From positions 1-32,469 of the forward strand of contig ONCI01000009.1 in NCBI GenBank assembly GCA_900316255.1: DNA of 32,469 nt, in the 5' to 3' direction. The notes beneath the pieces are model-generated. The model was not told where the DNA came from. It saw only the letters and a list, made by a program, of their open reading frames with translations, and did no database searches. Source of the stretch: an uncultured Eubacteriales bacterium. Its GTDB lineage: Bacteria; Bacillota; Clostridia; Oscillospirales; Oscillospiraceae. Made by a program: the position numbers and the translations under genes. This document shows positions 5,211 to 31,390 of the stretch, piece after piece (position 1 is the first letter of the stretch; every line of letters starts with the position of its first letter).

Positions 5211-7061
5211 TCAGAAGGGCCAGCTGGGCAGCCATTTGAGCAAAGCGTCGGCCAGTTCCGATTTGATGGGCAGCCCGTTCAGCACCGGGAAGAAAAGCAC
5301 AAAAAGGGCGATGGAGCCGGCGGTCAGACTCAGAGCGGAGAGCTTCCAGCTGCTGCGGTTTTCCCGGAGCAGGGCCATGGTGTAGCTGAGGGAGAGCACC
5401 AGGAAAAGCGCAGAGGGGAAATAGTGATAGGCGAAGGTGAGCCGCTCCACCGGCACCCAGGGCAGCAGCTGGCTGAGATAGCCTACCAGGATGAAGGCGG
5501 CCAGCCTGTCCCGGCGGCGAATGGCCATCCAGCAGAGCACCGGCAGGCTCAGCAGGCCGCCCCAGCAGAGCACCGGATTCAGGAAAGCGCCGATGCTGCT
5601 GCGCAGGCCGGGGGTGGGATACTCCAGCACATAGAGGATGGGCCGGTAGTCGATGAGCCAGTGGTACCAGTTGGAGGAATAGGGGTGAGTTGCTCCAAGC
5701 ACGCTCTTGGAATGATAGGTGAACATATAGTTCTGGTTATCCAGAACGATGCGCAGATAGTCCCCGGAGAAGAGGGAGACTCCCCTGGCCTGGCCGTAGG
5801 GCAGGTAGCTGAGATAATAGATCAGCAGAGGGACTGCGATGAAGAAGACCAGGCAGAAGAGGACGTTTTTCAGAAAAGCGGGAAGAAGGGAAGACGGGCC
5901 GTCGGGGACGCCGGCCCCTACATCTCCCTCGGGAGACGACGGACGTCTATCAGCCGCCCCTGCGGAGTCTTTTCGGGCCTTGATAAAGCGGAGGATCCAG
6001 TGGACAGCCCAGAGAAGGGCCAGGCCCGCCCCGGCATAGATGCTGGTCCACTTGGCGGCGGCGCCCAGACCGAAGCTGACACCGCAGAGGGCCAGAGCCC
6101 AGAGCTTGTCCTCCGAGAGCCAGATCCAGAGGAAGAGATACATCAGAAGGATGAAGAAAACCGAGTAGGTGTCGATGGTGGCGATGCGGGTCTGGACATA
6201 GTGCATGAAGTCCGAGGCAAAGAGAAGGGTGCCCAGGGAGGGCAGCAGCTGTCCGCCGAAGAGCTTTTTGAGAAAGACGTAGAGCAGCGGCAGCATCAGC
6301 GTACCGAAGAGGGTACCGGAAAAGCGCCAGCCGAAGGGCGTCATGCCGAAGAGGCGGATGCCCAGACCCATGATCTCCTTGCCGAGAGGCGGGTGGGTGA
6401 TCTCATAGGGCCAGACGCCGTTCAGATGCTCCCATGCCGTGCGGGCGTGGTAGATCTCGTCAAAGTAAGAGGAGTTCTGAAAACTCTGGGAGAGGGGGAC
6501 GGTGTCCGCCTCATCGCAGAGCTGGGGGATATTGCAGGATACGGCAATGGGGTCGCCGTCTCCGTTCAAGGGCACCACCTCGCCCAGCCAGGGCTCGCCG
6601 GAGGTGGCGCAGATGCGGATATACCGGGGGCGGAGGGAGGTCTCCGGGGTGATCGCCGTCCATTTGAGCACGGCGATGTGGTCCTGGGTGAAGGAGAAGA
6701 CGGAGAAATACTCCTGCCCGTTCTCGGAATAGGAGAGATCGTAGCTCCCCATGCCGACGCCGGGATAGAGCATGATGCTGCTGGGAGCGGAGCCCTCGGG
6801 CAGCTCCAGCACCGCCACCTGGCCGGCCATGGGCACAAAGCTCTGGGGATCGCGCATGCCGCCAAGACGGAAAAAGGCCGTGCAGGCGTAGAGCCCGGTG
6901 ATGAGCAGGATGGGCAGCGCGTCCCGGCGGGAAAGTGCGCGGGAGCGGGCCCTGCCCCCCTTCCCGGGGAGGAGGCAGCGGTTCAAATCCGGCAGGGTCA
7001 TGAAATAGACCAGCAGCAAAAGCACGGTCAGCAGGGGGAGAAAATAGGCAAAAACTTTCAT
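5211..7061 (-). CDS. PMT-family (GT39) membrane mannosyltransferase
   Basis: A 616-aa polytopic glycosyltransferase of the dolichyl/polyprenyl-phosphate-mannose protein mannosyltransferase type. Family landmarks are an acidic pair in FDEIYH (Asp201-Glu202) and HPPLGK (His223 onward), followed by many hydrophobic helices and a C-terminal four-helix region. In the family such enzymes move a lipid-linked sugar to an acceptor on the outer face of the membrane. Two oddities: a soluble beta-rich segment (about 65-190, including RPRYIRICA) sits between the first helix and the acidic pair and resembles a discoidin-like carbohydrate-binding domain; and residues about 365-392 contain a Gly/Pro/Ser-rich insert (VGAGVPDGP) encoded by a dispersed DNA repeat. 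The acceptor is unknown; the zinc-ribbon protein downstream is only a positional candidate. Confidence 0.85.
   Translation of the reverse strand: MKVFAYFLPLLTVLLLLVYFMTLPDLNRCLLPGKGGRARSRALSRRDALPILLITGLYACTAFFRLGGMRDPQSFVPMAGQVAVLELPEGSAPSSIMLYPGVGMGSYDLSYSENGQEYFSVFSFTQDHIAVLKWTAITPETSLRPRYIRICATSGEPWLGEVVPLNGDGDPIAVSCNIPQLCDEADTVPLSQSFQNSSYFDEIYHARTAWEHLNGVWPYEITHPPLGKEIMGLGIRLFGMTPFGWRFSGTLFGTLMLPLLYVFLKKLFGGQLLPSLGTLLFASDFMHYVQTRIATIDTYSVFFILLMYLFLWIWLSEDKLWALALCGVSFGLGAAAKWTSIYAGAGLALLWAVHWILRFIKARKDSAGAADRRPSSPEGDVGAGVPDGPSSLLPAFLKNVLFCLVFFIAVPLLIYYLSYLPYGQARGVSLFSGDYLRIVLDNQNYMFTYHSKSVLGATHPYSSNWYHWLIDYRPILYVLEYPTPGLRSSIGAFLNPVLCWGGLLSLPVLCWMAIRRRDRLAAFILVGYLSQLLPWVPVERLTFAYHYFPSALFLVLSLSYTMALLRENRSSWKLSALSLTAGSIALFVLFFPVLNGLPIKSELADALLKWLPSWPF
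5895..5924 (-). repeat. GTAGGGG repeat inserted in frame in the PMT gene
   Basis: On the minus strand this reads GATGTAGGGGCCGGCG and continues through CCCCGACGGCCCG, with a 6-bp GGGCCG/CGGCCC stem. It shares the GTAGGGG head and GC-rich hairpin form with the repeat at 20-51. It encodes residues 380-389 (DVGAGVPDGP) in a loop between membrane helices, keeping the frame open. Confidence 0.5.
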
Positions 7062-18273: not shown

Positions 18274-18323
18274 ATGATGACAACATTGGCGGAATACGCC
18301 TTTGCATGAAAGGGGATAGGCAT

Positions 18324-19667
18324 ATGAAATGCCCTACCTGCGGCCAGATCTGCCGGACGAACCGGGAATTCTGCGCCCTCTGCGGTACGCCGCTGAAGCG
18401 GAAAAAGCGTCACGGCGGGCTGATCGCGCTGCTGCTGGTGCTGGTCCTGCTGCTGGGCGCCGCCGGATACGTCTTCCTGATGAAGGACCCGCTGAATCTG
18501 ATAAAGGGCCTGCGCCCCGCCGAACCCGCCGCCCGGGAGATCTCCGCTGTACAGGCGGATTCCTCCGCCATCATCGTCCAGGAGACGGCAGAGATGCCGG
18601 CAGCGGTTGCCCGGGAGGGCCTGCTCTGGCAGGACGCCGCGGAGATCTATGTGAAAGACCGCTACACCCTGGCGCTGTGCAAGGATGGCACGGTGAAGCT
18701 GGCCGGCCAGTCTGCCTCGCCGGAGTTCGGCTTCGACCTCTTTGACTGGGCCAATATCAAACAGCTCGTCCCCGCGGACTTCTTTGTGGCGGGCCTGACG
18801 GCGGACGGTCGGGTTCGGCTCACCGGAGAAGTGAGCGGCTATGAAGAAGCCGCCCGCTGGACCGACGTGGCGCAGCTTTACCTGGATGGGGATACCCTGC
18901 TGGGCCTGACCGGGGACGGCCATGTTCTGGCCGCTGCCCCCGAGCTGGCCTTCGATCCCTCCGAGCTCCATGACATGGTGAATATCCTCACCGGTGGCCC
19001 GGATACCCTGGCGGTGGCCCGGGACGGCAGGGTCAGCGTTCTGCGCCGGCAGGGCATGCTCTGGGATCTGGACGGCGCCTACGGGCTGAAGGAAGTCGCC
19101 TGCAACGCCGACTATGCCCTCTTTCTGATGGAGGACGGCACGGTGCGCACCGGCGCCTCCCTTCACTACTACCTCAACGGCACGGACAGCCCCTTCTACG
19201 GCTGGGAGAATATCAGCCAGCTGGTGGCGGGCGACTGGTTCGCCCTGGGCCTGACCCGGGAGGGGACGATCCTGGGCGCCTCCACCGCCTATGGCGAGCC
19301 GATCCCGGACACCTCCGCATGGACCGATGTGCGCCAGCTTCTGCTGGACCGGGAGCGCAGCATCGTCTACGGCACCACCGGGGACGGCCGGGTGCTGGCT
19401 GCCGCCGCTTCCCAGGAGACCACGCTGCCGGAGCTGGGCTCCTGGCAGAATGTAGCGCAGCTGCAGATCAGCCGGAACTACATCGCAGCGCTGACCACGG
19501 ACGGACGGGTGCTGACTTTTGCCTGGCCGGAAGCCCCGGCGGCGCTGGACTGCGAAGCCTGGGCCGGCGTCAGCTCCGTTGCCCTGAGCAATACGCACTT
19601 GGCGGCCCTGCTTGCGGACGGCACGGTGCTGGCCGCGGGAGACAACAGCTTTGGCCAGTGCGGCTGA
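18324..19667 (+). CDS. Zinc-ribbon, membrane-anchored RCC1-repeat protein
   Basis: A 447-aa protein with a zinc ribbon (CPTCG near residue 3, CALCG near 18), a basic stretch, one membrane helix (about 32-52), and an outer domain of about 390 residues. The outer part contains about nine units ending in a DG-x-V turn, such as LALCKDGTVKLAG, VAGLTADGRVRLTG and, last, LAALLADGTVLAAGDNSFGQCG, the classic RCC1 ending. RCC1 repeats form a beta-propeller; bacterial versions are usually extracellular and of unknown role, probably binding partners. The Met at 18324 is chosen over 18306 because the upstream one overlaps the AAAGGGG site. The anchor layout parallels that of the protein at 3901-5169. It has its own promoter and terminator. 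Confidence 0.82.
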   Translation: MKCPTCGQICRTNREFCALCGTPLKRKKRHGGLIALLLVLVLLLGAAGYVFLMKDPLNLIKGLRPAEPAAREISAVQADSSAIIVQETAEMPAAVAREGLLWQDAAEIYVKDRYTLALCKDGTVKLAGQSASPEFGFDLFDWANIKQLVPADFFVAGLTADGRVRLTGEVSGYEEAARWTDVAQLYLDGDTLLGLTGDGHVLAAAPELAFDPSELHDMVNILTGGPDTLAVARDGRVSVLRRQGMLWDLDGAYGLKEVACNADYALFLMEDGTVRTGASLHYYLNGTDSPFYGWENISQLVAGDWFALGLTREGTILGASTAYGEPIPDTSAWTDVRQLLLDRERSIVYGTTGDGRVLAAAASQETTLPELGSWQNVAQLQISRNYIAALTTDGRVLTFAWPEAPAALDCEAWAGVSSVALSNTHLAALLADGTVLAAGDNSFGQCG

Positions 19668-19878: not shown

Positions 19879-21891
19879 ATGGAAACCAAAAACATTCGCA
19901 ACATCGCCCTCCTGGGCCACGGCAACAGCGGCAAGACCAGTCTGGCCGAGAGCATGCTCTTTGTGACCGGCGCTATCGACCGTCAGGGCAAGGTCTCCGA
20001 CGGCAACACCACCTGCGACTACGACGCGGAAGAGATCAAGCGCCAGATCACCATCGCCGCCTCCATCGCCCCCATCACCTTCGGCGGCAAGAAAATCAAC
20101 GTTCTGGACTGCCCGGGCTACTTCGACTTTGTCGGTGAGACCCTGTGCGCCCTGCGCGCTGTGGAAGCCGGCGCCATCCTGGTCACCGCCAAGGACGGCA
20201 TCTCCGTCGGCGCCGAGCGTATGTGGAAGGCCACCAAGGCCGCGAACCTGCCCACCATGTTTGTGGTGTCCAAGACCGATGAGGAGCACGGCGACTTCTT
20301 TGCCGTGGTGGACGCGCTGCGCGAGAAGTACGGCAGCATCGTCGCTCCCGTGACCATCCCCACCTCCGACGGCACCGGCGTCATCGACCTGGTGAAGAAC
20401 GTGGCTTACGTCACCAAGAGCGGCAAGACCACCAAGACCGAGGTCCCCGCTGCCGACGCCGGTCATGTGGAAGACCTGCGCATGGAGCTGATGGAGACCG
20501 CCGCCGGCGCCACCGAGGAGCTGATGGAGAAGTTCTTCGAGGAGATGGAGCTGAGCGAGGAAGACACCATTGCCGGTATCAAGGCCGGTGTCGCCACCCG
20601 TGACGTGATCCCCGTATTTGCCAGCGCCGCCATGCTGAACATCGGCACCGAGGCCCTGCTGCAGGGCATTGCCGACTACGTTCCCGATCCCTCCGAGGCC
20701 GAGGGCATCGACCCCAACGGTCCTGTCCAGGGCTTCGTGTTCAAGACCGTGTCCGACCAGTTCGGCAAGTACAGCTTCGTGAAGGTCATGAAGGGCACCA
20801 TCACCTCCGACCTCTCTCTGCGCAACCTGCGCGCCTCCAGCACCGATAAGCTGGGCCGTCTCTACACCGCCACCGGCAAGAAGATGACCGAGGTCAAGGA
20901 TGCCTGCTGCGGCGACATCGTTGCCGTGGGCAAGATGGACTGGAAGACCGGCGATACCGTGTGCGATCCCAAGAACGAGGACGAGCTCCCCGCCATCGAG
21001 ATGCCCGAACCCTGCTACTCCATGGCCATCTCCCCCAAGACCAAGGGCCAGGACGACAAGGTCGCCGGCGGTCTTGCCAGACTGAACGAGGAAGACATCT
21101 CCTTCACTCTCGTGAACAACGCCGAGACCCACCAGATGGTCATCTCCGGCCAGGGCGACATCCAGGTGGACGTGCTCTGCGCCAAGCTGAAGAGCCGCTT
21201 CGGCGTCGAGACCGAGCTGAAGCCCGCCCGCGTGGCTTACCGCGAGAAGATCAAGGGCAAGGTGGAAGCCCACGGCCGTCACAAGAAGCAGTCCGGCGGT
21301 TCCGGCCAGTTCGGTGACGTGTGGATCCGCTTCGAGCCCCAGGAGGAGCAGGACGAGATGATCTTCGCCGAGGAAGTCTTCGGCGGCTCCGTTCCCAAAA
21401 ACTTCTTCCCCTCTGTGGAAAAGGGTCTGCGCAACGCGGTGCAGAAGGGCGTTCTGGCGGGCTACCCGCTGGTGGGCCTGAAGGCCACCCTGTACGACGG
21501 CTCCTACCACCCGGTGGACTCCAACGATATGGCCTTCCAGACCGCTGCCCGCCTGGCCTACCAGGACGGCATCCCCAAGGCCAAGCCCACCATCCTGGAG
21601 CCCATCGGCCTGCTGCAGGTCAGCATCCCCGATGAGAACCTGGGCGACATCATGAGCGACATCAGCTCCAAGCGCCGCGGCACCGTGCTGGGCATGACCG
21701 CCGAGGACGGCATGCAGACCGTGGAGGCCGAGGTCCCCATGGCGGAGATGAGCTCCTACACCATCGACCTGCGCTCCATGACCCAGGGACGCGGTTCCTT
21801 CACCTGCAAGTTCATCCGTTACGAGGAAGCTCCCGGCAACGTGCAGCAGAAGGTCATCGAAGAGGCCAAGGCTCTGGCTGAGGCGGAATAA
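19879..21891 (+). CDS. Divergent elongation factor G (EF-G-2/FusA2-like GTPase)
   Basis: A 670-aa translational GTPase with the EF-G domain order. The P-loop GHGNSGKT is at 13-20; switch I reads DGNTTCDYDAEE; G3 is DCPGYFDF at 77-84, where canonical EF-G has DTPGHVDF; G4 is SKTD at 131-134 in place of NKxD. Domain IV begins near GKVEAHGRHKKQSGGSGQFGDVWI. The Tyr in place of the catalytic His of G3 and the DGNTTCDYD switch I are features of the EF-G-2/FusA2 paralogue group, not of housekeeping EF-G. Codons are strongly biased to C-ending ones, suggesting high expression. GAGAGG lies about 8-10 nt before the ATG. It might act in ribosome recycling, translocation under special conditions, or ribosome protection; not resolvable here. 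Confidence 0.88.
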   Translation: METKNIRNIALLGHGNSGKTSLAESMLFVTGAIDRQGKVSDGNTTCDYDAEEIKRQITIAASIAPITFGGKKINVLDCPGYFDFVGETLCALRAVEAGAILVTAKDGISVGAERMWKATKAANLPTMFVVSKTDEEHGDFFAVVDALREKYGSIVAPVTIPTSDGTGVIDLVKNVAYVTKSGKTTKTEVPAADAGHVEDLRMELMETAAGATEELMEKFFEEMELSEEDTIAGIKAGVATRDVIPVFASAAMLNIGTEALLQGIADYVPDPSEAEGIDPNGPVQGFVFKTVSDQFGKYSFVKVMKGTITSDLSLRNLRASSTDKLGRLYTATGKKMTEVKDACCGDIVAVGKMDWKTGDTVCDPKNEDELPAIEMPEPCYSMAISPKTKGQDDKVAGGLARLNEEDISFTLVNNAETHQMVISGQGDIQVDVLCAKLKSRFGVETELKPARVAYREKIKGKVEAHGRHKKQSGGSGQFGDVWIRFEPQEEQDEMIFAEEVFGGSVPKNFFPSVEKGLRNAVQKGVLAGYPLVGLKATLYDGSYHPVDSNDMAFQTAARLAYQDGIPKAKPTILEPIGLLQVSIPDENLGDIMSDISSKRRGTVLGMTAEDGMQTVEAEVPMAEMSSYTIDLRSMTQGRGSFTCKFIRYEEAPGNVQQKVIEEAKALAEAE

Positions 21892-23025: not shown

Positions 23026-24855
23026 TCAGCCGGCGCCCAGCTCCGCGTAGGTCTTCGGCTCCAGGTTCGTATGCTCCCGCAGCCACTGCAGCGTGTTCAC
23101 GGAAGAGCGCTCCACGGGAAAGCCCAGGTAGAACATGCCCGCGTAGGGATCGTTTCCGATTCCCTGCTCGCGGCAGGTGAAGTTGATGGCAAGGGAATAC
23201 ACGTTCTCTTCATAGTACTCGTCATGCACAAGATGGGCCAGCGCGATGTGCCCGTCCCGGGCGTCGGGGAGGATGCCCTCCTGATAAAGACTCATGGCCT
23301 CTTCGGCGGTGAGACTCACGCCGGTCCAGACCAGGTGCGCCGGATCGGTGCTTTCGTCCAGAATTCCGTAGGAGATCTCCGTGCCCACAAGGGTTTCCGG
23401 ACTGAGAGGCCGGTCTGCCCGGGCACGGGCAAGGATCGCCTCCGGCGCGTTGAGCAGGGCCTCCGCCCGGCGCAGGAGGGAATCGGGATCCTCCTTGTCC
23501 GCAGTCGGGAGCCGGTAAGTGCGGTCCAAAGTGCGCCCGTCGGAAAGATGGTAAAAGATCGCGAGGCCGGCGTCGCCAGCGCCCCTTTCGCAGGCGGCCT
23601 TGTCCGCGATCAGGTCCCGGTGAAAGGCCGCGGCCCGGGCGATCTGCGCAGGGTCTCTCAGCTCCGCGACTTCCCCGCCGGACCAGAGACTCACGCATTC
23701 CACGTCCTCGGGGGAGGGGACACGTTTTTCAAAGCCGGTGAGGTCAAACTCAAAGACGCCGACAAAGAGCAGAATCACCCCGCAGGCCACAGCAAAGCCA
23801 CGCCACTTGCCGTGAAAGACCTTCAGCGTCTTCTGCATCAGCATCTCGGCGGCAAAATAGCCGATGAAGGCGCCCACGAGCATCAGAGCCAGGATCAGCA
23901 GCGCCGCGGAAAGGCCCCGCATCGAGATACGATAGAAGGAGGCCAGCAGCATATCGGCAACCACCAGCGCCGTGCCGAAGCAGAGACAGTATTGAAAGAC
24001 GGGCTTGAGGATCCGGACGGCGACTACGTCGCCGGCGGTCTCCATCCTGCGGCGGCGGTAGAGCAGCAGGGCCGCAGCGGAGAGAAGCAGACCGACGGCG
24101 CAGTAGGCCGCCAGAGCGCCGAGACCGTTGATCCTGTAGCCCAGGGGCTGTAGCCGGGTGGTGTTGAGCTGCTTCATGAGCAGCACCGGCGGTGAGAGAA
24201 AATGGAGCTTCGAGCTGTGGTTGACCATGCCGAAGACGAAGAGGGACAGCAGCTCACGCCCGCAGCCCTCGACTGCCGCCACGGCAAAGTTCAGCACCAG
24301 ATAGACCGCCGGGAGCACCAGGATATTTCCCGTGAGCATGGCGCAGAAGACCGCGAAACCGTAAAAGGCGATGTTGCCCATGGCGGCGAGCACGAGGAAT
24401 TCCAACAGCGCGGAGACGTGCAGCAGGCCACGCGTACAGATGAGCAGTGCCGTAACCAGCACGACGAGAAGGTCGGAGAGCAGCAGCGGGACGATGCCGG
24501 TGAGCCAGGCCGTGAGGAACATGGTCTCCCGGCGGAGGGGGAGGCAGTTCATCATGCCGCAGCTTTTGCTCTGGTAGAGATAGTGGAACATGGCCATGGC
24601 GGCGATGACACCCACAAAGGCGGAAATGTATACGACCGCAATACCCTCATCTACGGCACAGAGATCCATGCCCGCTACGGCTTCCTCAAAGCTGATTGCC
24701 CCCGAGCCGATGTTGCTGAAGATTGTGGCCTGCGAGGCAAGCTCCCCCGGCAGGATCAGCAGCAGCAGGCAGAAATAGGCGGCCCACAGCGGCCAGAAGC
24801 GCCGCAGCAGGTTTTGAGCAATTCCCCGGTTAAAGAACGAGATCCTTGACTTCAT
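23026..24855 (-). CDS. ABC-2-type transporter permease with large extracytoplasmic domain
   Basis: A 609-aa membrane protein. About ten hydrophobic helices occupy residues 1-375, including the SKSCGMMNCLPLRRE loop typical of ABC-2 permeases near a coupling helix; residues about 380-609 are hydrophilic and predicted outside. It overlaps the end of the ATPase gene: the chosen Met at 24855 has GGGAGGTG 6 nt upstream, and the in-frame Met at 24876 lies before that site. With the ATPase and the GntR regulator it forms a Ytr-like three-gene operon. Such exporters in Firmicutes are linked to cell-envelope antibiotic or acetoin-related responses; the substrate here is unknown. Confidence 0.87.
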   Translation of the reverse strand: MKSRISFFNRGIAQNLLRRFWPLWAAYFCLLLLILPGELASQATIFSNIGSGAISFEEAVAGMDLCAVDEGIAVVYISAFVGVIAAMAMFHYLYQSKSCGMMNCLPLRRETMFLTAWLTGIVPLLLSDLLVVLVTALLICTRGLLHVSALLEFLVLAAMGNIAFYGFAVFCAMLTGNILVLPAVYLVLNFAVAAVEGCGRELLSLFVFGMVNHSSKLHFLSPPVLLMKQLNTTRLQPLGYRINGLGALAAYCAVGLLLSAAALLLYRRRRMETAGDVVAVRILKPVFQYCLCFGTALVVADMLLASFYRISMRGLSAALLILALMLVGAFIGYFAAEMLMQKTLKVFHGKWRGFAVACGVILLFVGVFEFDLTGFEKRVPSPEDVECVSLWSGGEVAELRDPAQIARAAAFHRDLIADKAACERGAGDAGLAIFYHLSDGRTLDRTYRLPTADKEDPDSLLRRAEALLNAPEAILARARADRPLSPETLVGTEISYGILDESTDPAHLVWTGVSLTAEEAMSLYQEGILPDARDGHIALAHLVHDEYYEENVYSLAINFTCREQGIGNDPYAGMFYLGFPVERSSVNTLQWLREHTNLEPKTYAELGAG

Positions 24856-25723
24856 AGTCGGCACCTCCCAACTCATAAATGAAGATTTCCTCCAGGCTCA
24901 GCGGCACCAGGTCCAGGAAGAGAGGCTGGGTGGCGGCGATCTTTTCGGTAAGCTCCTCAGCCCTGCCCCGGAGGATCAGCTGCCGCAGGCGGCCGGTGGC
25001 GCTCTCGTGCACGATCTCCAGACCCTCGGGCAGGCTGCCGCCGTCCGGGTAGGCCAGCTGCAGCTTCACCAGGTTTTCCTGCAGGTCGCTGAGGCTGCGC
25101 TCGATCATCATCCTGCCGTGGTTCATGATCCCCACGTGATCGCACACGTCTTCCAGCTCCCGCAGATTGTGGGACGAGACCAGAACCGTGGTGCCGTACT
25201 GCTCCACATCCGAGAGCAGCACGCTCCAGATCTGGCGGCGCATCACGGGATCGAGACCGTCCACCGGCTCGTCCAGCACCAGCAGTTCCGGCCGCTGGGC
25301 CATGGCGATTTGAAAGGCGGCCTGCTTCTGCTGTCCCTTGGAGAGCTTGCGCATGGGCCTTTTTTCATCGAGGCCGAAGAGCACGGAGAGCTTTTCGTAA
25401 CGCTCCCGGTCGAAGCGGGGATAGAGGCTTTCGGCAAAGCGGGCCATGTCGCGGATGCTGGCCTGGGTATAAAAGAAAATGTCGTCCGGAATGTAGGCGA
25501 TCTTCTCCTTGACGCCGGGGTTTTCGTAGACCGGCTCCCCGTCCACCAGCAGCTCTCCTTCGTCCTGCCGGTAGATCCCGGCCAGATGGCGGATAAAGGT
25601 GGATTTGCCGGCGCCGTTTGGCCCGACCAGGCCGTAGACGGCTCCCCTGGGCGCCGACAGGTTGAGCCCGTCAAGGGCGCGAAAGCAGTCAAAGCGCTTG
25701 ACAAGCGATCTTCCTTCAATCAT
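24830..25723 (-). CDS. ABC transporter ATP-binding protein (YtrB-like)
   Basis: A 297-aa nucleotide-binding subunit. Walker A is GPNGAGKST (34-42), the signature loop is the variant LSKGQ, Walker B is LLVLDEPVDGLD and the switch His is in VSSHNLRELEDVCDH. A C-terminal extension of about 80 residues follows the core, as in ABC-2 drug/lantibiotic exporters. It overlaps the GntR gene by 8 nt upstream and the permease start by 26 nt downstream, so all three are translationally coupled. Confidence 0.95.
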   Translation of the reverse strand: MIEGRSLVKRFDCFRALDGLNLSAPRGAVYGLVGPNGAGKSTFIRHLAGIYRQDEGELLVDGEPVYENPGVKEKIAYIPDDIFFYTQASIRDMARFAESLYPRFDRERYEKLSVLFGLDEKRPMRKLSKGQQKQAAFQIAMAQRPELLVLDEPVDGLDPVMRRQIWSVLLSDVEQYGTTVLVSSHNLRELEDVCDHVGIMNHGRMMIERSLSDLQENLVKLQLAYPDGGSLPEGLEIVHESATGRLRQLILRGRAEELTEKIAATQPLFLDLVPLSLEEIFIYELGGADYEVKDLVL

Positions 25724-26081
25724 GCTCGTTTCCCTCCTTGATGAGCGAAAGTATCTCCTCCGTACGCATGCCGAGGGCGCGAAGCTCCACGGCAGTCTGC
25801 TGCAGCTGCGCGCTCAGCGCGGCCCGGCGGGCGAGCATGGCAGCGTCCGTTTTGCAGACAAAGCTGCCTCGCCCCGGGACCGAGCAGATGCAGCCCTCGG
25901 CCTCCAGCTCGCGGTAGGCGCGCTGGATGGTGTTGGGATTGATGGCAAGGCTTGCCGCCAGCTCCCGCACCGAGGGCAGCTTTTCGTTGGGCTCCAGGAC
26001 ACCCGTCAGGATGAGCTGGCGAAAGCCGTCCCGCAGCTGCTCATAGATCGGCCGCGGATCGCGGTAGTTGATCTGGATCAC
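25716..26081 (-). CDS. GntR-family repressor, YtrA subfamily
   Basis: A 121-aa regulator beginning with GTG at 26081, chosen because GGAGGTG lies about 6 nt upstream and the protein then starts at the family's usual VIQINYRDPRPIYEQLRDGF. The winged helix (about 8-75) contains LPSVRELAASLAINPNTIQRAYRELEAEG; the C-terminal part is a short two-helix dimerisation region, as in YtrA, not a FadR or HutC effector domain. YtrA members repress their own ABC operon, and a perfect palindrome overlaps the promoter here. Confidence 0.93.
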   Translation of the reverse strand: MIQINYRDPRPIYEQLRDGFRQLILTGVLEPNEKLPSVRELAASLAINPNTIQRAYRELEAEGCICSVPGRGSFVCKTDAAMLARRAALSAQLQQTAVELRALGMRTEEILSLIKEGNEHD

Positions 26082-26092
26082 GCAGACACCTC

Positions 26093-26128
26093 CTGTACTA
26101 ACTGTATTAAATGACTTAGTACAGTCAA
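26093..26128 (-). promoter_or_regulatory. Promoter with palindromic operator for the GntR-ABC operon
   Basis: On the minus strand TTGACT (26123-26128) is the -35, and TACAGT (26101-26106) a plausible -10 at 16 nt. A perfect 9-bp dyad CTGTACTAA / TTAGTACAG (26093-26101 and 26116-26124, 14-nt spacer) covers both elements. This is the expected position for an autorepressor site. Confidence 0.72.
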
Positions 26129-26177
26129 GATAACACAGGCATTGCTTTTTGTCAAGCCCGCAGAAAAATATAGCAAA

Positions 26178-26216
26178 ACGAGCGTCCCTGCATTTCGGCA
26201 ATGCAAAGACGCTCGT
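26178..26216. terminator. Terminator of the pseudo-P-type ATPase gene
   Basis: An outer 9-bp stem (ACGAGCGTC at 26178-26186, GACGCTCGT at 26208-26216) encloses an inner TGCATT/AATGCA stem. In the minus direction it is followed by TTTTGCTATATTTTT. It separates the large gene from the GntR operon promoter. Confidence 0.78.
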
Positions 26217-26277
26217 GCTTTTGAAGAAATTGGGTTTGCTGCGAACAGCAGATCCGGTCACGCTGCGGGCGGGAAGA

Positions 26278-29200
26278 TCAGAGCCTGAGGAAGGCGCTGA
26301 TCAGCAGCACCGGCAGAGACCAGAGCAGCAGGAACAGCAGGAGGAAGCCGGCGGAGACGATGCCCGCGGAGAGCAGCTTGAAGAACACCACGAACACACC
26401 CAGCACGGCGGCCAGGATCGTCAGCAGCAGGTTGATGCGGACGGAGAGATAGAGGCTGCGGGCGGTGTCGGCCATATGCACCAGAGGACCCAGACCCTCC
26501 CGGCAGACCACAGCGGCAGGCTTGCTGTCCGCGGAGGGCTTGGCCTCGGAGATGGCGAAGCGGTCCACATAGGGCGGGAAATCATAGCCGTCGGTGGCGA
26601 CCTCAAAGCAGTCGGAAAGCATTTCGGGGGTCACCAGGAAGTCCCGGATGGCGAAGATGGGGTGGCGGTTGGAGCGGATCAGACCCACCAGGGCCTTGCG
26701 CACCTGGGGCTGCCCCTCGTACTTCATGTTGAAGATGCCGCAGAGGATGCCGTCCACCGCAAGGAGCACCGTGGTCTTGCCAACCAGACGGTAGGGAACG
26801 CGCACGTTCATGAGACGCATCAGGTCCAGACCGCCGCAGAGGATCACGCTGCCGTCGATGACGCCCTTCATGCCGCCGCCAGAGAGGTTTTCAAAGCCCT
26901 CCACCCGCCGCATGGAGCAGTTGTTCTTCTCCATCAGCTGGGAGAAGCAGGGGGCCAGATCCGAGCCGGAGGCGCAGATCATGGTACCGGCGTAGGAGAT
27001 GATGGTCTCGGGCTGGACTTCGGCAAAGATGCGGACGGTGTCGATCTCCACACTGCCCTCGGGGAACAGATCCCGGTCGGTGACGATCAGATTGTCGCTG
27101 CTGCCGATGTCGCTGATGCCGGACCAGCCGGCGATGGCGGCGCCGCTGTGGAAGATGCGCAGGGAGCCGAAGAGAAAGGGAAGGGCAAAGCAGAGCAGCG
27201 CCATGATGGGCACCGCGGGGCAGAGGATCACCGTGAGGATGTACAGATAATCGGGGAAGGCGTGCTTGGCGATGGCAACCACCAGGGCCATCAGCACCGC
27301 CAGGATCCCGAGAACGGGGGAGAGACGGTTGAAGGCTGTCTCGTCGGGGGCGGCCTCCTCCGTCCTGCGGACAAAGCCCTTGGGCGGCCGCAGGGACTTG
27401 AGCAGGGTCAGGCCGTTGCCCTTCACGTCCGGCTCCGCGGTGACCGCGTAGCAGCGCTTGCCGATGGCCGGCACCCGCAGGGCCTTGCGCAGGCCCCTGG
27501 CGCTGGCCAGGGAGGACATCAGCACCCCCAGGAAGGAGAGGCTGGAAATCAGGCAAAGGGGCATGTGAGGCGTGCCCATAAAGCCGAGACACACGGAGAG
27601 CGCGTCCAGACTTGTGAGAATGCAGGTGAGAACGGCCAGAGAGTCAGCGCCGAAACGGCCCCGGGCCAGGTTTATCAGCGAGCCGGTGACCACGTCCAGA
27701 CCCAGCAGCAGGATCGTGAGCTGGATGGCCAGGGAGAGACCCGCGGCCACCTCCACGGTGCGCAGCGCGCCGGAGACCGGCAGCCCCAGAGTGATCCAGG
27801 TAAGGACCGCCAGCAGCACCAGCCCGATGCGGACCCGCATGCGGAGACTGGTGACGAAGGAGCCGTAGTACTTGGAAGCGGTGGCAGGGGAGACCTCGGG
27901 ACCCAGATCCTCACTCTCGTCCTCCATGGTGGAGGCGGTGCCGGTGCGGCTGCGCCTGGCACCGAAGAGACGGACCAGGAGGCTGGAGGCCATGCCGGAG
28001 AGGTACTGACCAAAGGAGGGGAAGGCGTTGGGGTCGTCCCCGTCCTCCTCGTCATAATCCAGATCCGGGGCGTATTCCGGCCGGCGGCGGTCGTCGTAGC
28101 CCTCGGTATGTTCGGGCGCCTCCGCCTCGGCGGCAGGCGCTTTCTTTGTGCCTTTGCGGAAAAGACCCTTTTTCTCCAGAGGCTTTTCCGCCAGCTCCTC
28201 TTCGCCGGCCACCCAGTGGAAGCCCACGTTGCCGCTGGGCTTGGGGGGAACGTAGCTCTCGTCCGCGCTCAGGTCCAGCTCCCTGCCGTCGAAGACCATG
28301 GTGCTCTTCCGCTCCCCGCTGAGATTGAAGCGGGGATCGATCTCCTCGGAGGGGATGTAGCTCCGGGCCGGCTTGGGGCGGGCGAGCTCGCTCCCTTCCT
28401 TCCGGGAGGGCTCCACCGCGGCCGCCGGCTGGGGGGGCGCGGGATCCTGGTCGAGAAGACGGCGCAGGCTCTCGCTCCAGTCCGCGGCGGTGAGGTCCGG
28501 AACGGGACTAGCGGCTTCCTCCGCGGGGGAAGCGGGCATCGGTTCGGGGGCGGGGGCTTCGGCCTGGCGCCGCCGCAGACCGCCCTGGCTCCGGGCGCCA
28601 TCGGCGTGGGAGGAGAAGCTCTCACCCCGCATCTGCTGCAGGATGTCCCGGGCTTCCTCTTCCATGCGGGAAACTTTGCCGCCTCTGCCGGCTTTGGGAG
28701 AGGGGGAAGGAGCCGCGGCAGCGGAGACAGGCTCTGCCCTGCGGGCGGGTTCCGCCTTCCGCTCTTCGCCGATGACATCGGCGGCGGCGGGAATGGCGGC
28801 GAGTATATCGTTGTATTCGGCTAAAAAATCATCAACGGACATGGCGGAGAATTCAACATCCTCATCTTTAATCTCTCTTCGCCGAGGGGAAGGGGAGGGA
28901 ATTTGCTTTGCAGGGGGGGAAGAAGTCTGCCCGGGAGAAGGCGGAGCGGCCTGCTCCTTTTTGGCGGGAGGGGCCTCCTCGCGCCGTTCACGGCGGAGAA
29001 AACCGAAGGTCTCAGCGGCTTCGGAGGGCGCGAGCGGTTCGGGCTGCCCGGCCTCGGGGACCGGGGCCTCCTCCGCGGCGGAAGGGAGACCCTTCCGGCT
29101 CCGCTCCGCCGCTCCTTTCCGACGGGCGGGACGGGCGGCGGGAGAAGAGCTCTCCCTGCCGGAGGCAGAGCGGGAGCTTTTCTCCTTCTCCCTGCGCCGG

Positions 29201-30414
29201 GAAGCGTTCTCAGCGGCCGAGGGGGCCGCGCCGGTAGGGGGGAGAGAAGAAGCCTCCTCCCTCCTGCGGGCTGCTTCCCGACGGGAACGTGGCGCGTCGG
29301 CAGGGGGGGCGGGCTGTTCAGCCGGCTCCGTGTATTCTGCCCAGAACTCCGACAGAATGTCGTTTACGGACATGTTGAGAACATCGGGTTCGGCTTTTGG
29401 CCGGGCCTTCGGCAAAGGCCGCGGCGCCGGGGCAGGCGTCTCTTCCTCGGGGAAGAGCGGCCGGGCGGGCGCATCAACAGTGTCAGGCTCCGGCTCAGAG
29501 AAGAGGGGCCGGGCAGGCGCTTCCACAGTGTCGGGCTCGGATTCGGGAGCGGGGACAGGCTTGGCTTTTTTTGCGGGGGAAGGAGAGGCTTTCTTTGTAG
29601 GGGACGGGCGCATTTTGCTCACAGCGCCCAGGAGATCCTGGAAGGGATTTCGTTTGCTTTCGGTTTTGGCTTTCTCGGAGAAAAAGGCCCGGGGCTTCTC
29701 CGCCGGGGCGGGAGGCTCCTGCTGCCGTCTGCGGCGGGGGAGAGGCTGGGGCTCAACGGGCGCGGTACTCTCCTCCAGCCCGCCCCAGTATTCCGCCAGA
29801 ATGGCGTCTACCGAGAGGCCGGCGAGCTCCGCTTCCGGGATGTGGACCTCCACCTCCGGCACAGCGCGCCGAAGGGGAGCGGACACCGCGGCCCGGACCG
29901 GTTCCGGAGCGGGAGTCACGTCCTCTTCCTCTTCGATGCGCACGGGCTCTTCCTTTTTGCCCCAGAGCAGCTCGTCAAAGCTGGGGAGCTCCTCCGGAGC
30001 GGGAGGGACTTTGGAGGCCCGGGGCTTCGCTTCGGAACGGAGACGGGAAAGAAAGCCGCTTGCCAGACTTTTCAGATCCGGCCGGGGCTTTTCGGAAGGC
30101 GCAGGCTCTTCCTCCTCAGATGCGGGCGGAACAACCCGGTCATCCTCAGGGACGGGCGCTTCTTTTCCCCAGCGGGAGGCGAGACGCTCCTGGCTTTCCC
30201 TGCGGTCCCGCCGCGGCTGATAGATGCGCACGCTGTCCTCCGGCTCTTCCGCGGGGCGCAGAGCGTCCATAGAAGAGCGGGAAAGGCTGCGCCGGGGAGG
30301 GGACGTCTGCTCGGCTTCCGGCAGCATATCGTCCAAAATCTCCGCCAGGATGTCATTGACCCGGTAATCCGGAGATTCCATATTCTCTTCTTCGTCCGAG
30401 AGAAAACGACTCAT
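26278..30414 (-). CDS. Giant pseudo-P1B-type ATPase with a disordered tail bearing four VxDILAE motifs
   Basis: A 1378-aa protein. Residues 1 to about 860 are low-complexity (Pro, Glu, Ala, Arg, Ser-rich), presumably disordered, with motif copies VNDILAE (19-25), VDAILAE (202-208), VNDILSE (350-356) and VDDFLAE (527-533), plus a 16-residue tandem duplication at 294-325 (PDTV-[ED]-APARPLF). From about 863 there are eight hydrophobic helices in the P1B-ATPase arrangement: RGRFGADSLAVL matches the usual N-M-D-x-L-V region, LCPAVP in helix six matches CPC/CPx, and VEGFENLSGGGMKGVIDGSVILCGG (from 1171) matches the nucleotide-domain GxGxxG region. The phosphorylation site reads DRDLF (1113-1117), not DKTGT; the GDN position reads RDF (1257-1259); no TGE occurs in the short loop after helix four. 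Predicted non-pumping membrane scaffold. It lies 51 nt after rlmB, with AGGGG 7 nt before its start. Confidence 0.8.
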   Translation of the reverse strand: MSRFLSDEEENMESPDYRVNDILAEILDDMLPEAEQTSPPRRSLSRSSMDALRPAEEPEDSVRIYQPRRDRRESQERLASRWGKEAPVPEDDRVVPPASEEEEPAPSEKPRPDLKSLASGFLSRLRSEAKPRASKVPPAPEELPSFDELLWGKKEEPVRIEEEEDVTPAPEPVRAAVSAPLRRAVPEVEVHIPEAELAGLSVDAILAEYWGGLEESTAPVEPQPLPRRRRQQEPPAPAEKPRAFFSEKAKTESKRNPFQDLLGAVSKMRPSPTKKASPSPAKKAKPVPAPESEPDTVEAPARPLFSEPEPDTVDAPARPLFPEEETPAPAPRPLPKARPKAEPDVLNMSVNDILSEFWAEYTEPAEQPAPPADAPRSRREAARRREEASSLPPTGAAPSAAENASRRREKEKSSRSASGRESSSPAARPARRKGAAERSRKGLPSAAEEAPVPEAGQPEPLAPSEAAETFGFLRRERREEAPPAKKEQAAPPSPGQTSSPPAKQIPSPSPRRREIKDEDVEFSAMSVDDFLAEYNDILAAIPAAADVIGEERKAEPARRAEPVSAAAAPSPSPKAGRGGKVSRMEEEARDILQQMRGESFSSHADGARSQGGLRRRQAEAPAPEPMPASPAEEAASPVPDLTAADWSESLRRLLDQDPAPPQPAAAVEPSRKEGSELARPKPARSYIPSEEIDPRFNLSGERKSTMVFDGRELDLSADESYVPPKPSGNVGFHWVAGEEELAEKPLEKKGLFRKGTKKAPAAEAEAPEHTEGYDDRRRPEYAPDLDYDEEDGDDPNAFPSFGQYLSGMASSLLVRLFGARRSRTGTASTMEDESEDLGPEVSPATASKYYGSFVTSLRMRVRIGLVLLAVLTWITLGLPVSGALRTVEVAAGLSLAIQLTILLLGLDVVTGSLINLARGRFGADSLAVLTCILTSLDALSVCLGFMGTPHMPLCLISSLSFLGVLMSSLASARGLRKALRVPAIGKRCYAVTAEPDVKGNGLTLLKSLRPPKGFVRRTEEAAPDETAFNRLSPVLGILAVLMALVVAIAKHAFPDYLYILTVILCPAVPIMALLCFALPFLFGSLRIFHSGAAIAGWSGISDIGSSDNLIVTDRDLFPEGSVEIDTVRIFAEVQPETIISYAGTMICASGSDLAPCFSQLMEKNNCSMRRVEGFENLSGGGMKGVIDGSVILCGGLDLMRLMNVRVPYRLVGKTTVLLAVDGILCGIFNMKYEGQPQVRKALVGLIRSNRHPIFAIRDFLVTPEMLSDCFEVATDGYDFPPYVDRFAISEAKPSADSKPAAVVCREGLGPLVHMADTARSLYLSVRINLLLTILAAVLGVFVVFFKLLSAGIVSAGFLLLFLLLWSLPVLLISAFLRL

Positions 30415-30465: not shown

Positions 30466-31221
30466 TTACAGACTGCGCTGGCGAAGGATCTCGTACATGG
30501 TGATGGCGGCGGCTGCGCTGGCGTTGAGGGAGCTGACCCGGCCCTTCATGGGCAGGCTCACGATGAAATCACAGCACTCCCGCACCAGGCGGCCCATGCC
30601 GTCTCCCTCCGAGCCGATGACCAGGGCCAGGGGACCGGAAAAGTCCGTGTGCCACAGGTCGTTCTGCCCGTCGGCGGCGGTCCCGTAGACCCAGACGCCC
30701 CGGTCCTTCAGCTCTTTGAGCGCGGCGGGGATGTTGGGGACCCGGGCCACTGCCATATGCTCGGCAGCGCCGGCGCTGGCCTTGTCCACCACGGCGGTGA
30801 GCCCCGCGCTGCGGCGCTTGGGAATGATGACGCCGTGGGCGCCGGCACATTCGGCGGAGCGGATGATGGCGCCCAGATTGTGCCCGTCGCTGATCTCGTC
30901 ACAGACGATCAGGAAAGGAGCCTCGCCCCGCTCTTCGGCAATGGCGAAGAGATCCTCCACCGAGCAGTATTCCCGCACGGCGGCCAGCGCGATGACGCCC
31001 TGGTGGGCATGGGTCCTGGACATGAAGTCCAGCTTCCGCCGGTCACACTCCACCACGACGATGCCCTTGTCCCGGGCGGTGGAGGCAATGTGACCCAGGG
31101 TCCTGTCCACCTCGCCCTTGCTGATATAGAGCTTGTCCATGGCGCGGCCGGCCCGCAGGGCCTCCATAACGGCGTTGCGGCCTTCGATGATCTCGTTCTG
31201 AATCCCGGATTCTTTCTCCAT
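30466..31221 (-). CDS. rlmB: 23S rRNA 2'-O-methyltransferase RlmB (TrmH/SpoU family)
   Basis: A 251-aa SpoU methyltransferase that, in its family, methylates the ribose of G2251 in the peptidyl-transferase loop of 23S rRNA using SAM. The N-terminal substrate-binding domain begins IIEGRNAVMEALRAG; the knotted catalytic domain has DEISDGHNLGAIIRSAECAGAHGVIIPKRRSAGL (motif 1), LALVIGSEGDGMGRLVRECCD (motif 2) and SLPMKGRVSSLNASAAAAI (motif 3). The ATG at 31221 is preferred, since GGAG lies 9 nt upstream; an in-frame TTG at 31236 overlaps that site. The next gene on this strand is the large pseudo-ATPase, probably cotranscribed. Confidence 0.93.
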   Translation of the reverse strand: MEKESGIQNEIIEGRNAVMEALRAGRAMDKLYISKGEVDRTLGHIASTARDKGIVVVECDRRKLDFMSRTHAHQGVIALAAVREYCSVEDLFAIAEERGEAPFLIVCDEISDGHNLGAIIRSAECAGAHGVIIPKRRSAGLTAVVDKASAGAAEHMAVARVPNIPAALKELKDRGVWVYGTAADGQNDLWHTDFSGPLALVIGSEGDGMGRLVRECCDFIVSLPMKGRVSSLNASAAAAITMYEILRQRSL

Positions 31222-31390
31222 TGCATACGACTCCAAGTTATAATTTTACTGATAAAGCATACCACAGCTACGGGTAAAAAGGAAGCACAAGTTTGGAAAT
31301 TTACAATTTTTTATAGACTTTGCGGCAGGGGCAGAGTATGATAACGGGGTAGATCCTGATCCGCATTCCTGAAAAAAGAAAGGTGGTTCC

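Follow-up and report, generated by a model that had tools for sequence, protein, structure and literature searches.

The DNA considered here (the window: 32,469 nucleotides, contig ONCI01000009.1 of assembly GCA_900316255.1, from an uncultured Eubacteriales bacterium of the order Oscillospirales) carries on its minus strand, at 26278-30414, a reading frame that stays open over 1378 codons from its ATG, and the encoded protein looks, over residues 860-1378, like a copper-type P1B-ATPase without its catalytic motifs. Residues 1-855 form a tail rich in proline (118), alanine (118) and glutamate (114), which looks disordered, as suggested by this composition and by the many gaps that appear when close relatives are aligned. 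In the core that follows, the hydrophobic stretches (Kyte-Doolittle) fit a 2+2+2+2 arrangement of membrane helices, i.e. four helices, a short loop, two further helices, ~240 cytosolic residues and a closing pair of helices. An earlier note on this DNA, made from the letters alone, had listed P1B landmarks in a given order, and along residues 918-1257 they do follow one another in that order: RGRFGADSLAVL at residue 918, CPAVP at 1065, DRDLF at 1113, GGGMKGV at 1179 and RDF at 1257.

No Pfam model matches the window protein, nor any of 38 family members (0/38). In NCBIfam its matches to CopA (E = 1.3e-5) and TIGR01525 (E = 3.2e-5) both lie far under the curated cut-offs, the score against TIGR01525 being 27 bits for a cut-off of 346; the latter model is matched at 1e-3 by 21 of the 38 members, all of them far from the cut-off as far as the tabulated scores show. 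A profile (A2) built from these 38 members, which are 16-36% identical to the window protein, finds CopA (PDB 3rfu) at E = 1.1e-24, with other copper pumps next, and in this alignment the DLFP loop stands opposite DKTGT, and RDF opposite the TGD hinge. Compared with 15 canonical pumps by hhalign, the same profile gives a probability of 99.9 and E = 5.2e-35; the 499 aligned columns run colinearly from the first helices as far as the M5 region, and the actuator domain is mostly gapped. Judged by these profile matches, residues ~860-1378 are homologous to copper P1B-ATPases across both the membrane and the cytosolic domains, which bears out the P1B-type resemblance proposed in the earlier note. 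What the family has in common with the copper pumps (CopA, TIGR01525; PDB 3rfu, 7r0g, 8q75) is the four N-side helices, M3/M4, the P and N domains (including the glycines of the latter) and the two closing helices. What sets it apart is a reduced actuator domain, a long, apparently disordered tail with a short motif, and the loss of TGES, of the K, G and T of DKTGT, of the His of SEHP, of the G and N of TGDN, of GDGxND and of the CPC cysteines.

These losses were counted in a MAFFT alignment of 86 rows (80 loci picked across families, the window protein and five close relatives, L031 and L033-L036), drawn from the matches listed among 280 matching genomes and with L032 excluded; counts at gap columns depend on this alignment. 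The canonical comparison set consisted of 24 P1B pumps chosen for having [DG]KTGT, so that their full score at the DKTGT columns follows from the choice and only the other columns are informative. TGES corresponds to a gap in all 86 rows (the actuator remnant of the window protein has ~50 residues), and the sole TGE[SP] string (in L063) sits at residue 78 of its tail. At the DKTGT columns D is found in 19 rows, K in 0, T in 15, G in 0 and the final T in 0; at SEHP, S in 35, E in 9, H in 0 and P in 25; at TGDN, T in 46, G in 0, D in 83 and N in 0. Neither DKTGT nor GDGxND occurs anywhere in any of the 86 complete proteins. The Lys of DxxK is kept in 0/86, with Tyr in place of its Asp in 81/86, and the P-domain Lys is present in 2/86, versus 24/24 canonical pumps. 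The CPx metal site in M4 is missing as well (C in 4, P in 59 and the second C in 2 of the 86), and the window's CPAVP is thus not the family landmark that it had been taken for. Another P1B-type ATPase of the window's genome (L120, G000:C79), which scores above the family cut-off, has GKTGT for DKTGT.

At several of the vacated positions other residues are conserved. The replacement loop carries F or Y in 84/86 and P in 77/86, with the consensus D-x-[DE]-[LIV]-[FY]-P at the former phosphorylation site and RDF or xDPNIT at the hinge, and glycine is kept at two N-domain columns (86/86 each), the second being followed by N in 32/86. The absence of DKTGT and TGE, and the substitutions DRDLF and RDF, were thus read correctly from the window and recur among the relatives; with DKTGT intact in 0/86, the window protein is no lone degenerate copy. 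The protein is almost certainly a pseudoenzyme.

In a tree of 40 of the 86 family rows and the 24 canonical pumps, the pseudo-ATPases form one clade (support 100/100) apart from the canonical pumps, some member branches being long, and on this topology they are of single origin. The ratio of non-synonymous to synonymous substitution rates (dN/dS; Nei-Gojobori, six close pairs) is 0.05-0.27 in the core. In the tail it is 0.22-0.48, a rough range, with dS reaching near 1 and a gapped alignment. The core values show a gene under purifying selection that is maintained, not decaying, as the earlier note had supposed. Three pseudo-ATPase relatives (G022:C38, G075:C2 and G115:C22) have one in-frame stop each, for which sequencing error, decay or recoding are all possible.

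With the family profile at 1e-50 as the threshold for presence, 268 of 295 sampled Oscillospirales genomes match (214 of the 226 good ones), with one match per genome except for two in G084, as far as the table was read. The 27 genomes with no match at this threshold include G275, which is listed as 100% complete. The window core alone matches 280 of the 295 at 1e-3, some of these matches perhaps being ordinary pumps. In a sample of the class (245 genomes), the nine that belong to this order reach E ≤ 3e-82 over nearly the whole profile, while the best genome outside the order reaches 4.8e-35 in columns 173-438, where copper pumps match; in a sample of the phylum, 2 of 249 genomes match at 1e-40, namely the window's own and one of its family. 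In these three samples the family spans the whole order and, as far as the sampling goes, is restricted to it. A scan of viral contigs with alignment A1 found no relative.

As for the ends of the gene, the earlier note had described an intact frame on a giant protein, with a clean ribosome site and terminator. The frame is intact; the first ATG, however, is preceded by GCAGGGGTTGAAATATG, in which there is no clean ribosome site, and the true start may be the ATG at codon 12, which follows a GAGGAA stretch. A hairpin does lie 3' of the gene, at 26216-26178 (17 pairs), which on its own is weak evidence for a terminator, because 7 terminator-type sites were found versus 4.3 +/- 2.1 in shuffles. 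The giant size is peculiar to the window's lineage and not a typical trait, since the median length is 788 aa in 80 relatives taken from other genomes, of which only 10 reach 1000 aa. The features are collected in Table 1.

Table 1. Features of the pseudo-ATPase gene and of two further genes, in window coordinates
Feature	Position	Strand	Basis
Whole reading frame, 1378 aa (predicted disordered tail and pseudo-P1B-ATPase core)	26278..30414	minus	open reading frame
N-terminal tail, residues 1-855, length varies among relatives	27850..30414	minus	composition, close-relative alignment
Motif copy 1, YRVNDILAEI, residues 17-26	30337..30366	minus	sequence reading
Motif copy 2, LSVDAILAEY, residues 200-209	29788..29817	minus	sequence reading
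Motif copy 3, MSVNDILSEF, residues 348-357	29344..29373	minus	sequence reading
Motif copy 4, MSVDDFLAEY, residues 525-534	28813..28842	minus	sequence reading
Pseudo-P1B-ATPase core, residues 860-1378	26281..27837	minus	profile and profile-profile matches
Shrunken actuator-domain remnant, ~50 residues, without TGES	27328..27471	minus	alignment, hhalign
CPAVP, in helix aligned with CPC helix of copper pumps	27208..27222	minus	alignment
DRDLF replacing DKTGT, then P	27064..27078	minus	alignment
GGGMKG loop of nucleotide domain, one Gly kept in 86/86	26863..26880	minus	alignment
RDF replacing GDN hinge	26638..26646	minus	alignment
Terminator-like hairpin 3' of the gene, 17 pairs	26178..26216	minus	consensus scan only
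rlmB (23S rRNA G2251 2'-O-methyltransferase), 51 bases upstream of the reading frame	30466..31236	minus	Pfam, NCBIfam, tblastn
EF-G-like GTPase, all EF-G domains	19879-21891	plus	Pfam

The position next to rlmB, which the earlier note had pointed out, holds well beyond the window. A tblastn search with the window's RlmB places rlmB upstream, in the same orientation, in 83 of the 86 loci. The distance lies between -220 and 224 bases for 81 of them (the negative values stem from the called starts) and is 661 and 1121 bases in L067 and L096. Of the three remaining loci, only L065 is a genuine exception, as L042 and L103 start at the end of a contig. So fixed a neighbour suggests co-expression, while a joint function is not proven by it; co-transcription with rlmB, read from gene order, is likewise suggested.

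The tail of the window protein contains four copies of a short motif of the type SVDDILAEY or FSLEDILAEF, which occurs within the first 120 tail residues of 54 of 74 relatives (the 86 rows minus five near-duplicates and seven frames no longer than 600 aa). In composition-preserving shuffles (500 rounds) it occurs in 0.2 of the 74 on average and in 2 at most. That the motif is a generic clostridial N-terminus was rejected: the variant V-D-[DE]-I-L-E-E-x is found in 1 of 245 genomes and is therefore not a common string. A strict EDILAE[FY] pattern at the DNA level gives 8 matches in 8 of the 41 genomes of the window's family, and 0 with the reversed control. Four of these matches are pseudo-ATPase tails (L188, L191, L192, L193), whereas the other four are the extreme C-termini of LspA, signal peptidase II (L187, L189, L190, L194). 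The window genome's own LspA (L186:460-1524, G000:C107) ends in FDLDDILAEFK. When 147 genomes of the order are searched with a looser pattern, 22 matches result: ten are pseudo-ATPase tails, two (L200, L205) are probably fragments of such tails, two are LspA (the window genome's own and that of G098) and eight lie in other frames. LspA (PF01252), which was found in 259 of 290 genomes, has the motif of the pseudo-ATPase tails at its own C-terminal end in six genomes, all belonging to the family of the window's bacterium; its fold and its gene context are unrelated. The two genes are not adjacent, and lspA looks to be flanked by ileS and an rluD-type gene. As a separate observation, the LspA of L186, L187, L189, L190, L194 and L246 have a long, apparently disordered C-terminal tail ending in FDLDDILAEFK or similar, and several share DPFAEWE.

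Since the catalytic parts were lost and yet the gene is conserved, the protein has probably taken on a different function. The best explanation overall, which we regard as an even bet, is that of a pump body emptied of its chemistry and kept as a non-catalytic membrane scaffold with a docking-motif tail. A P1B-type body lost the phosphorylated-Asp loop, the TGE dephosphorylation loop, the GDGxND magnesium site and the His that contacts ATP a single time, ahead of the diversification of the order, and was kept from then on. Under this explanation, the eight-helix body would serve as a membrane anchor and the former P and N domains as a rigid cytosolic platform, whereas the disordered N-terminal arm, presumably on the cytosolic side, would bind a cytosolic partner through one (in the window four) putative docking motif of the FSLEDILAEF type. 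As the motif also stands at the end of some LspA, these and the pseudo-ATPase may be gathered by one partner, or the pseudo-ATPase itself may be the docking site for LspA. A further-reaching version is rather improbable, namely that a P-type fold was emptied once at the base of this Bacillota order and turned into a membrane hub that nearly all members have in single copy and co-express with RlmB, its tail motif bringing together other membrane proteins, LspA among them. Were this so, it would be the first family of pseudo-P-type ATPases in bacteria and would define the order.

Several points weigh against the scaffold explanation. The structure models are of low confidence, with a pLDDT of 38.0 (530 aa) and 31.5 (the P/N part, 234 aa), with an input of only the window protein and L031-L036, which are 82-96% identical. 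The motif expression was composed after inspection of the sequences, the motif is missing from 20 of the 74 tails, and five loci outside that count (L091, L097 and L108-L110, ~550 aa), as well as short f10 members, have hardly any tail. In the order-wide search 8 of the 22 matches fall in unrelated frames, five of them with DIFAE. The six genomes in which LspA was seen to carry the motif all belong to a single family, and one of these, G275, is without a pseudo-ATPase match (the other five have one); it is also the only one of 18 long LspA frames read to have a motif variant, SILSEF. No binding partner was found for the tail motif, and no observation puts the scaffold idea above that of a sensor.

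In this latter idea, the main rival, the core would still bind nucleotide or metal without turnover and relay a change of shape to the tail or to a partner. The two invariant N-domain glycines and the hinge Asp (83/86) agree with it, as does the N behind the second glycine, as far as its 32/86 goes. These glycines may be structural, however, and other motif residues are largely gone: the SEHP His and the TGD Gly are found in 0/86, the Glu of SEHP in 9/86, the DxxK Lys in 0/86 and the metal-site cysteines of CPC in 4/86 and 2/86. A nucleotide- or ligand-sensing pseudo-ATPase is a tentative possibility.

Distinctly less probable is a membrane scaffold or transporter-like role that is independent of the tail motif, the latter being a structural helix cap or an autoinhibitory peptide that binds its own core. 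The N-terminal domains of P1B pumps contact the core, and most relatives have a single copy of the motif near the N-terminus, which fits this proposal; the four copies in the window protein do not, and the LspA that also end in the motif speak for binding in trans. It is more doubtful still that the dead copy pairs with an active canonical P1B pump as its regulatory subunit. The window's genome does hold four other loci above the TIGR01525 cut-off, but gene order links the pseudo-ATPase to rlmB and not to a metal pump.

A change to another enzyme, i.e. a phosphatase of the haloacid dehalogenase (HAD) type acting through the D-x-D of the DxDLF loop, is very improbable. Many members do have D-x-[DE] in this loop (D at the K column in 61/86 and at the G column in 66/86), in a spacing that we take to be that of HAD motif I, and this much is common to the family and HAD-superfamily phosphatases. 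The position is not fixed, however, as the first Asp varies in members with DAKDLF, DAEQLF or SEEELL, and F or Y stands where Thr or Val follows in DxDx. Motifs III and IV are missing (the motif III Lys in 2/86, the GDGxND site in 0/86), and on these motifs the proposal was rejected. Finally, the idea of a copper pump decaying or mis-assembled in one genome, which could appeal to the missing motifs and to the internal stops in three relatives, has a negligible chance of being right and was rejected, together with contamination and a single degenerate copy, on the open frames, the identical losses in 86/86, the one old clade, the low core dN/dS and the near-universal presence in the order.

P-type ATPases are textbook pumps, and to our knowledge no established family keeps the P-type body while dropping the pump chemistry. 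In agreement with the earlier note, neither Pfam nor the open-access full-text literature yielded a characterised family of this kind; the few titles listed deal with other matters (the design of an artificial transporter, fungal Apt1, P5A-ATPases, mouse Atp11b, a MACPF structure). This source lacks most subscription journals, for which reason the evidence for novelty is weak. The family resembles pseudoenzymes in general (e.g. pseudokinases and inactive rhomboids) in that catalytic residues are lost, the gene and its predicted fold are kept under purifying selection and new residues are conserved; it differs in that the open-access literature yielded no P-type ATPase example of this kind. It seems that roughly nine in ten genomes sampled from this order, whose members abound in gut and rumen, have kept a pseudo-ATPase that is invisible to Pfam; it has a fixed gene neighbour, and its short motif offers a concrete way to look for a partner. 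If confirmed, this would mean that a P-type fold can act as a scaffold or sensor, and pipelines that annotate such genes as metal pumps would need correction.

Among the other neighbours, an EF-G-like gene lies downstream on the same strand, next or next but one, in 19 of the 86 loci. A cluster of opposite-strand reading frames directly before the pseudo-ATPase gene (position -1, 20 loci) was set aside as mostly a shadow of rlmB, given that 17 of the 20 overlap the rlmB match. Downstream in the window, at 24830-26261 on the minus strand, lie a GntR-family regulator and an ABC ATPase, whose sub-cut-off NCBIfam matches include PmtR/PmtA of the phenol-soluble modulin exporter. Further away are a gene for an RCC1-repeat protein (18306-19667, plus strand) and one for a Protein O-mannosyltransferase-like protein (PMT, PMT_4TMC; 5211-7061, minus strand), which looks unusual in such a bacterium.

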